Part shown: in pieces, positions 5,107 to 20,356 of the stretch
How the letters are laid out: every line of letters begins with the position of its first letter
How positions within the stretch are numbered: position 1 is the stretch's first letter
Assembly (NCBI GenBank): GCA_944390335.1
Contig: CALXQA010000004.1
Location: 1 to 33,381, forward strand
Direction of reading: 5' to 3'
From: an uncultured Clostridia bacterium
Lineage (GTDB): Bacteria > Bacillota > Clostridia > TANB77 > CAG-508
DNA: 33,381 nucleotides
Notes under the pieces: model-generated
What the model was told of the DNA's origin: nothing
Database searches by the model: none
Seen by the model: the letters and a program-made list of their open reading frames with translations, nothing else
Position numbers and translations under genes: made by a program

Positions 5107-5689
5107 TTATTATTCTCCTTATAAATTTATATAACAAATTTACATTTGTAGAATGATAAGCATCTGCAAATTCCTTGATGCTTTTCATATTTAGTTTTTT
5201 TAATTCTTCTATATCTATTCTTAAATCATTAAGTAAAGTCTTTTCTAATATTTCTAGATTTTTTAGTGGTGATAGTGTATATAGTTTATCACACAATGCT
5301 TTTTCAGGAGTTGCTATTTGATAATAATAGTTATTTTCTTTTAAAAGATTAATTCCTAAAGGATATACTTTTTCTGGTACATCTCTATATAAAAATGTAC
5401 CAAACTTATTACTAAACATTTTCTTTTTTCTTTTATTAAAAGTAGCACTTGTATATATAGTTACCTTTTCTGGTATTAATCCATAATAATATAATGCAAA
5501 GTCAAATGATAAATATGATGGTCCATATATGCTCCCTGCAAGTAAGTATCCATTTGTTGTTTCATCTGTTTCATATAGTCCATTTTTTATTTTTATTAAC
5601 TTTCCATTTTTTATTTCTCTTGCAATTTTTGTATTTTTATTTGAATATTTATTTAATTTATTTTTTAAAATATTATTTGTTAATATCAT
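5099..5689 (-). CDS. AbiEi-type antitoxin, transcriptional autoregulator (type IV toxin-antitoxin)
   Basis: I start the protein at the ATG at 5689 (196 aa) because AGAGGTG lies 5-6 nt upstream. The longer reading from 5737 adds 16 residues and has no ribosome binding site. The N-terminal third is a winged-helix region (NKKLNKYSNK-like basic helix, GLYET wing), followed by the AbiEi core with YLSFDFALYYYGL and ATPEKALCDKLYTL, which is characteristic. In characterised AbiE systems this protein both represses the operon and neutralises toxicity without a stable complex with the toxin. It overlaps abiEii by 8 nt. Confidence 0.88.
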   Translation of the reverse strand: MILTNNILKNKLNKYSNKNTKIAREIKNGKLIKIKNGLYETDETTNGYLLAGSIYGPSYLSFDFALYYYGLIPEKVTIYTSATFNKRKKKMFSNKFGTFLYRDVPEKVYPLGINLLKENNYYYQIATPEKALCDKLYTLSPLKNLEILEKTLLNDLRIDIEELKKLNMKSIKEFADAYHSTNVNLLYKFIRRIINE

Positions 5690-19285: not shown

Positions 19286-19329
19286 TTTTCTCCTCCTTAA
19301 AACTTACTATCATCTTTTAGCATTATATA

Positions 19330-19364
19330 ATAAAAAGTAGATAATTTCAACTTTATTATCTACT
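19330..19364 (-). terminator. Intrinsic terminator of toxN
   Basis: AGTAGATAAT (19336-19345) pairs perfectly with ATTATCTACT (19355-19364) across a 9-nt loop, and on the minus strand the hairpin is followed by TTTTATTATA. It separates the toxin-antitoxin unit from ymdB. Confidence 0.8.
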
Positions 19365-19383
19365 GCTTATTTTAATTTTTTGT

Positions 19384-19890
19384 TTACTTATTAAATTTAT
19401 ATTTTATACTTTTTTCTTCTAATAATTTAAAATTACAAGCTATTGTTTTAAGAAAATTCTTACTATTTTTTGTTACAGCTATATACATTTTATTAGCTCT
19501 TTTATATATTTCTTCTTTATTAGAATTTATATATCTGTATTCTGATGATATTAAATCTTTATATTTTTTATCTTGCTTATGATATTCCAATACATGTGTC
19601 ACTTTTATATTGCTAGGAACTGGTATCATAGCTGAAAATTTAATAATTGCTAATGGATTATTTTTCCTATCATATACCAAGAAAAAACTAGGGTTATTTT
19701 TATATTTTCTATAATGTTCTTTATATGAATATAATGGTACAAAGTATTGATAATTTTTAATTTTTAATACAATTCCTAAATATGGCCTACTATGTCCAAT
19801 TTCATCTTTATTATAACTTACATGATTTTCAAATTCACTTAAATAATTAATATAATTTTTATCTACTGTATAAAATAATAATTCTTCCAT
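19384..19890 (-). CDS. Type III toxin, ToxN/AbiQ-family endoribonuclease
   Basis: The 168-aa protein matches the ToxN/AbiQ/CptN family in length and order of motifs. It has the start FYTVDKNYINYLSEFENHV, RPYLGIVLKI and YFVPLYSYKEHY (Ser55 lies where the family has the active-site Thr-Ser of PLTS), then LAIIKFSAMIPVP. Family members are kinetically slow, sequence-specific endoribonucleases held in check by a small repeated RNA. That RNA is visible directly upstream. AGAGGAAG stands 3-5 nt before the ATG. Replacement of the family Thr before Ser55 by Tyr54 is a feature to check. The gene ends at its own terminator. Confidence 0.85.
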   Translation of the reverse strand: MEELLFYTVDKNYINYLSEFENHVSYNKDEIGHSRPYLGIVLKIKNYQYFVPLYSYKEHYRKYKNNPSFFLVYDRKNNPLAIIKFSAMIPVPSNIKVTHVLEYHKQDKKYKDLISSEYRYINSNKEEIYKRANKMYIAVTKNSKNFLKTIACNFKLLEEKSIKYKFNK

Positions 19891-19904
19891 TCTTCCTCTT
19901 TTCG

Positions 19905-19947
19905 ATAAAACATAATATGGGAGTACATTTTCTTCAAATGTACCCCC
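19905..19947 (-). terminator. Attenuating terminator between antitoxin RNA and toxN
   Basis: In the minus-strand RNA GGGGGTACATTT (19936-19947) pairs with AAATGTACTCCC (19919-19930), 12 bp with one G-U pair and a 5-nt loop, followed by ATATTATGTTTTATC. Type III loci have such a leaky terminator between the antitoxin repeats and the toxin gene, keeping RNA in excess over toxin. Confidence 0.8.
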
Positions 19948-19950
19948 ACA

Positions 19951-20065
19951 ATTTAAAACTGCTTATTTATAAGGCTTAAGCATTACCTAATTTCAAATCA
20001 GTTCATTTATAAGGCTTGAACTTTACCTAATTTTAAGTCGTTCTCTTTTAGGTAAGAACTTCCTA
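19951..20065 (-). repeat. Three tandem antitoxin repeat units
   Basis: Units in transcript order are 20030-20065 (36 nt, most divergent), 19990-20029 (40 nt) and 19951-19989 (39 nt). The shared skeleton is TAGGTAA, a variable 5-nt arm, a loop, the complementary arm, and a T/A-rich tail ending AAAT. The two downstream units are about 80 percent identical outside their stems. Confidence 0.8.
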
Positions 20066-20067
20066 TT

Positions 20068-20085
20068 AGTAATCAAATGATTACT
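20068..20085. repeat. 8-bp perfect inverted repeat at the 5' end of the antitoxin RNA
   Basis: AGTAATCA and TGATTACT are separated by 2 nt, close after the expected transcription start. It could be a protective 5' hairpin, a DNA-binding site for regulation, or the remnant of a fourth repeat unit. Confidence 0.6.
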
Positions 20086-20099
20086 CTTTTAGTATATTA

Positions 20100-20129
20100 A
20101 TTATACTACGTTTTTATTCATTATGTCAA
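20100..20129 (-). promoter_or_regulatory. Strong promoter of the antitoxin RNA and toxN
   Basis: On the minus strand a perfect TTGACA (20124-20129) and a perfect TATAAT (20100-20105) are 18 bp apart. Transcription should start near 20093, just before the antitoxin repeats. Confidence 0.8.
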
Positions 20130-20169: not shown

Positions 20170-20356
20170 GTTACTATTCACAGTCTAATTTAAAAAACTG
20201 TATTTTCTTGAGGGTTTTAGCTAGTTGGATTTTATTAACATAAATGAGAAAAAATATTAAAAAATTTTATTTTATGTTAATATTTCTAAAATTTAAAATT
20301 GCTACAATCGTTGAAATTACTTAATTTATATTTATAAAACGGCTGTGAATAGTAAC
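20170..20356. mobile_element. MITE-like 187-bp element with 14-bp terminal inverted repeats
   Basis: GTTACTATTCACAG (20170-20183) and its exact complement CTGTGAATAGTAAC (20343-20356) flank a non-coding AT-rich segment. Inside is a second perfect 12-bp inverted repeat, TATTAACATAAA (20233-20244) with TTTATGTTAATA (20271-20282). There is no transposase and no clear target-site duplication. It lies between the rny terminator and the antitoxin promoter. A miniature inverted-repeat transposable element is the best reading; a long structured 3' RNA or another regulatory element is possible. Confidence 0.55.

Follow-up and report, generated by a model that had tools for sequence, protein, structure and literature searches.

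The window, a stretch of 33,381 nucleotides from an uncultured Clostridia bacterium, carries on its minus strand a locus (20129-19326) in which a promoter, three repeat units, a terminator hairpin, an open reading frame and a second hairpin follow one another, the whole module being flanked by rny and ymdB. This arrangement is that of a type III toxin-antitoxin system, a bacterial module for self-defence in which an RNA-cutting toxin is restrained by short, knotted RNAs whose repeats lie directly 5' of the toxin gene. The promoter (TTGACA-18-TATAAT, 20100..20129) matches the consensus at 12/12 positions and, as judged by comparison of the upstream sequences, is retained in nearly all related arrays. 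The gap between the promoter and repeat 1 contains a 5' leader hairpin of 7 bp (AGTAATC-ATTT-GATTACT, 20068..20085, z about -3), which is followed by repeat 1, a variant unit (20034..20067), and by two ToxI units, repeat 2 (19994..20033) and repeat 3 (19954..19993), spaced by 40 nt and sharing 80% identity at this locus. An intrinsic terminator hairpin of 15 pairs with a T-rich tail (19916..19950, z = -6.0) occupies the gap between the antitoxin and the toxin gene, toxN (19384..19890), which encodes an endoribonuclease of the ToxN/AbiQ family of 168 aa. A hairpin with 20-nt arms and a T tail (19326..19374, z = -4.25) is found 3' of toxN. In the locus region, two terminator-like sites were observed compared to 0.1 expected from shuffles, the post-toxN hairpin being missing from the list of the terminator scan because it is AT-rich. 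Using a promoter scan, we also detected a promoter-like sequence, TTGAAA-17-TATAAT (19350-19322), which overlaps the post-toxN hairpin and probably belongs to ymdB. All of the elements named in the preliminary description, from the promoter to the second terminator hairpin, are hence present on the minus strand, and their order of promoter, repeats, terminator and toxin is the ToxIN layout that it had recognised.

The assignment of the 168-aa open reading frame to the ToxN/AbiQ toxins, and with it the type III nature of the locus, was borne out by profile and structure database searches. The predicted protein matches Pfam PF13958 (ToxN_toxin) over nearly its full length (2.5e-42) as well as the PADLOC AbiQ profile (3.6e-41), and a PDB sequence search identified 4ato as the best match among solved structures (8.7e-23), along with AbiQ 4glk (2.1e-14) and ToxN 2xd0 (2.6e-14). 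Membership in the CptIN or TenpIN families was considered and rejected, as the significant toxin matches are to ToxN/AbiQ. When 20 diverse homologues were aligned, R35 proved invariant, and S55 and K57 nearly invariant; in the pairwise PDB alignment, these three residues align with K33, S53 and K55 of ToxN_Pa, the active site of which is described as Y29, K33, T52, S53 and K55 (PMC5086642). In the same pairwise alignment, the position of T52 is taken by Y54, and that of Y29 corresponds to a gap. An AlphaFold model of the toxin, built from 13 sequences, was too poor for use (mean pLDDT 45.5), and the ToxN-like fold of the toxin is predicted from sequence similarity only.

By reading of the sequence, each of the three repeats forms an H-type pseudoknot composed of two interleaved stems. 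The preliminary description had listed one stem per repeat, namely GTTCT/AGAAC in repeat 1 (20059-20055 with 20044-20040), AGTTC/GAACT in repeat 2 (20022-20018 with 20004-20000) and TGCTT/AAGCA in repeat 3 (19982-19978 with 19964-19960), all of which are exactly paired. The sequence that it had given as the loop, AAGCCTTATAAAT, is present but is not simply a loop: its CCU pairs with an AGG located 5' of the listed stem, and the listed stem closes across this pairing. The resulting shorter stem reads AGG/CCT in repeat 2 (20028-20026 with 20014-20012) and in repeat 3 (19988-19986 with 19974-19972), and TAGG/CCTA in repeat 1 (20065-20062 with 20052-20049). This pairing had escaped the first inspection, as had the 7-bp leader hairpin and the presence of NAAAU at all repeat junctions (see below).

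We then compared the units of related loci. Among 15 distinct internal units, the longer stem is paired in 98.7% of cells and shows two-sided changes at 3/5 pairs; 16 cells carry such changes compared to 5.8 in shuffles (0/500), and every slid control scored far lower. Once a second, more distant array group was added, two-sided changes were found at 5/5 pairs of this stem. The longer stem of the predicted pseudoknot is supported by covariation, whereas the 3-bp AGG/CCU stem is invariant in the 15 distinct internal units and its pairing is supported in this group through conservation and not covariation. Covariation within the locus itself, as originally claimed, is clear between repeats 2 and 3, where 3/5 pairs are changed on both sides; repeats 1 and 2 have the core GTTC/GAAC in common, offset by one base. 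When each unit was folded alone for minimum free energy, a method blind to pseudoknots, the z-scores of units 2 and 3 were weak. The preliminary description had named homologous loci without conserved repeats and stems as a refuting outcome; chance is ruled out, because about 30 distinct related arrays retain the same layout and the covariation score of the stem tops 500/500 shuffles and all slid controls.

Across the related arrays, the longer stem of repeat 1 (GTTCT/AGAAC) pairs in 99% of cells and the short stem in 80%. The short stem shifts register in some relatives, for example to TTTGAG/CTCAAA in locus L112, and is lost in loci L004, L031, L023 and L101. Column-wise covariation of repeat 1 showed no excess over shuffles, partly because of these changes in register. 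The earlier suggestion that this diverged upstream repeat may not be processed, or may differ in function, finds little support: most relatives keep both pseudoknot stems and a 3' NAAAU; a lesser or different role is possible in L004, L031, L023 and L101.

NAAAU was found at 54/54 internal repeat junctions from about 30 related loci (GAAAU, 21; CAAAU, 17; AAAAU, 14; UAAAU, 2), and unit 3 carries a UAAAU at its 3' end in most arrays. These junctions resemble known ToxN cut sites and are putative cleavage sites, the published motifs being AA-AU in P. atrosepticum and GAA-AU in E. coli (PMC8860590). Repeat 1 carries NAAAU on its 3' side, here and in most relatives, and has no AAAU on its 5' side, where the conserved leader hairpin occupies the corresponding place. 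Among 27 distinct sequences, this hairpin is paired in 97.9% of cells and shows two-sided changes at 4/7 pairs, compared to 0.8 expected (1/500 shuffles). Leader hairpins were also seen by eye in the L038-L048 array group, in L003 and L010, and in arrays of Carnobacterium (L119), F. vincentii (L120) and Vibrio navarrensis (L122); none was visible by eye in those of Lactococcus (L124), E. faecalis (L121), Lactiplantibacillus (L125) and Listeria (L126). In the literature passages covered, no mention of ToxIN leader hairpins was found. A further stretch just 3' of TATAAT, AATATACTA, is conserved between the window group and the L038-L048 group, the toxins of which are only 45-50% identical, and is possibly a start-site or operator element.

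The repeat units of the window group are non-identical and specific to their position within the array. On average, identity between loci within a given position amounts to 93.5% for unit 2 and 98.7% for unit 3, whereas unit 2 and unit 3 share 78.4% identity when taken from one locus and 78.8% when taken from different loci; toxin divergence in the same comparison reaches about 25%. Each of repeats 2 and 3 has its own stem across loci, with no homogenisation, and on the basis of sequence comparison the units are old separate positions and not recent duplicates. Arrays of two units (L030, L105, L112, L037 and L114) always consist of repeat 1 and one internal repeat. Non-identical units are not unique to the window group and are also encountered in Fusobacterium, Lactiplantibacillus and L038-L048. 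As a separate observation, L038, L039, L041, L044, L045 and L047 carry three non-identical stems by position, and their units apparently contain an additional hairpin within the second pseudoknot loop.

The window-type ToxIN subgroup was found in metagenome-assembled Clostridia. An array is present for every toxin of at least about 60% identity among those listed with upstream sequence, and the locus of the closest relative (toxin 94% identical) is equally intact. Behind 34 distinct arrays, the toxin is intact in 23, broken in 8, some of which may be metagenome assembly errors, and absent in 3. Two of these last three arrays, L154 (= L129, G113:C4 around 5279-5351) and L163 (G237:C14 around 30680), retain the promoter, the leader hairpin, three units and the terminator with no toxN downstream, and are candidate free-standing antitoxin RNAs. 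The toxin is lost before the antitoxin, which is the order expected of an antitoxin. The next open reading frame after the L154 array is membrane-transporter-like and has its own promoter-like sequence. At L169 (G342:C41), we observed the decayed remnant of an array, reduced to one altered unit and lacking a toxin.

The genes flanking the module vary among related loci, and in the same-genus relative L055 only 132 bp lie between rny and ymdB, with no insertion. These varied contexts and the existence of close relatives lacking the insertion fit a mobile module. A functional link to the neighbours rny and ymdB was rejected, since related loci sit in many different contexts. No phage-borne copies of the window repeat were present in the viral contigs searched, and a search of viral contigs for the ToxN of this subgroup returned one distant match only (35%). 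In the same-genus relatives L052 (879-1423) and L064 (3084-3627), the rny-ymdB interval, where the window has ToxIN, is filled by an OLE RNA (RF01071, 297 and 258 bits) followed by a small membrane-protein-like gene; an OLE search of the window's genome gave no match, but the search controls gave none either. Just upstream of the ToxIN promoter lies a MITE-like element of 187 bp (20170-20356) whose 14-bp terminal inverted repeats (GTTACTATTCACAG) are perfect, and a similar element of 198 bp is found in the same genome (G000:C15:5875-6072). This genome also contains a second ToxIN locus, L003 (G000:C8:132-590), whose three repeats are near-identical and which has a leader hairpin of its own, and a broken ToxN with no visible repeats, L002 (G000:C7:9678-10121).

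A different observation concerns the toxin gene in L034 (907-1977), L035 (907-1977) and L049 (1501-2559), where the ToxN open reading frame is extended in frame by about 190 aa that form a C-terminal domain (in L036, the contig ends). This domain is 95% identical between L035 and L049 though their ToxN parts differ, has relatives in 20/98 family genomes and shows a weak match to a triphosphate tunnel metalloenzyme (E 0.017), and a stand-alone relative, L178, matches CYTH below the cut-off (E 0.0047). These open reading frames are candidate ToxN-CYTH fusions.

Taken together, these results leave us with very little doubt that the window carries a complete, chromosomal member of the ToxIN family of type III toxin-antitoxin systems. 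For transcription, processing, toxicity, ring assembly and phage defence, which we infer from the characterised family, the following model may be drawn. A single promoter would give rise to a precursor RNA comprising the 5' hairpin, the three pseudoknot units and the terminator, and the toxN mRNA would stem from occasional read-through of this terminator. By cutting this precursor at the NAAAU of each internal junction, ToxN would release the pseudoknots that then trap it, probably in a ring made of three ToxN and three ToxI molecules. Once the antitoxin supply halts, for instance upon phage shutdown of host transcription, ToxN would be freed and would cut cellular and phage RNA.

One could argue that the module is a decayed or silent remnant, in which repeat 1 is dead and the toxin non-functional, given that the short stem of repeat 1 is gone in L004, L031, L023 and L101, that eight related loci have broken toxins and that the same genome harbours the broken ToxN remnant L002. 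Such decay is very improbable for the locus described here, which has a full-length open reading frame retaining the nearly invariant residues, a perfect promoter and stems that are all paired, and whose nearest relative, as indicated above, is equally intact. The presence of a structured RNA and a terminator directly 5' of toxN would also be compatible with a cis-regulatory leader, attenuator or riboswitch-like, in place of an antitoxin. We give hardly any credence to this explanation: tandem pseudoknots with a ToxN-like cut motif at each junction correspond to the known trans-acting ToxI design, and L154 and L163, which keep the entire array without toxN, do not fit a purely cis role.

Within the ToxIN reading itself, repeat 1 and the leader hairpin may constitute a separate element, acting as a 5' cap or regulator, so that the antitoxin would comprise only repeats 2 and 3. 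The lack of a 5' AAAU in repeat 1, the conservation of the leader hairpin in nearly all arrays and the constant retention of repeat 1 in the two-unit arrays listed above speak for this variant, but in most relatives, and in the window, repeat 1 shares the same pseudoknot design and its 3' cut site is normal, and we regard the variant as possible but doubtful. A further proposal, which we put forward as speculative and rather unlikely, is that the ToxIN subgroup is built from fixed, non-interchangeable units, with a 5' hairpin cap, a specialised unit 1, and units 2 and 3 whose stems would be kept distinct by a need of the complex or of precursor folding, and that the toxin-less arrays (L154 and L163) persist as free-standing antitoxins against ToxN encoded on other elements. 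The sequences do show the fixed non-identical units, the leader hairpin and the toxin-less arrays, whereas the functional roles attached to them are putative. The about 30 distinct arrays of this well-resolved gut Clostridia ToxIN subgroup offer a set of natural mutants against which the ToxI pseudoknot can be tested, and the position-specific repeats, the conserved 5' hairpin and the two toxin-less arrays raise the questions of whether the units are equivalent, how the 5' end of the precursor is protected and whether an antitoxin RNA alone is kept as protection.

Overall, the window locus adds a new member to the known ToxIN family, and its antitoxin sequence is in itself no evidence of novelty. 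The window array gave no Rfam antitoxin match at gathering or at E <= 10, only chance matches; the classical arrays L118-L124 and L126, analyzed as a control, were likewise without an Rfam antitoxin match, and the absent match is therefore not evidence of novelty. The remark in the preliminary description that the repeat sequence is not a recognised one is true but uninformative, as ToxI sequences vary widely and Rfam misses the classical arrays; according to PMC4627078, ToxI repeats differ greatly between systems in both sequence and length. Similar to the window locus, P. atrosepticum ToxIN (L123) shows the operon layout, a toxin of the ToxN family, the length of the pseudoknot unit and A-rich AAAU junctions (PMC5086642, PMC8860590). 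In contrast to the window, with its three non-identical units and 5' hairpin, its repeats are more numerous and nearly identical, and the toxins are only about 33% identical. L. lactis AbiQ/antiQ resembles the window locus in the PADLOC AbiQ profile match (3.6e-41), in having about three repeats and in unit length (PMC5086642), whereas the Lactococcus plasmid relative L124 has near-identical repeats soon after the promoter and no visible leader hairpin, unlike the window. The closest solved ToxN by sequence, 4ato (8.7e-23), is that of B. thuringiensis ToxIN (ToxIN_Bt), which is listed with 2.9 repeats of 34 nt in PMC5086642; its published cut motif, AAA-AA (PMC8860590), differs from the NAAAU of the window group. 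Finally, the ToxIN systems of Fusobacterium (phage phiFN37 and F. vincentii; L117 and L120) have toxins only 32-37% identical to that of the window and another repeat sequence, but they carry two non-identical units, and the F. vincentii array is preceded by a leader hairpin, as in the window.
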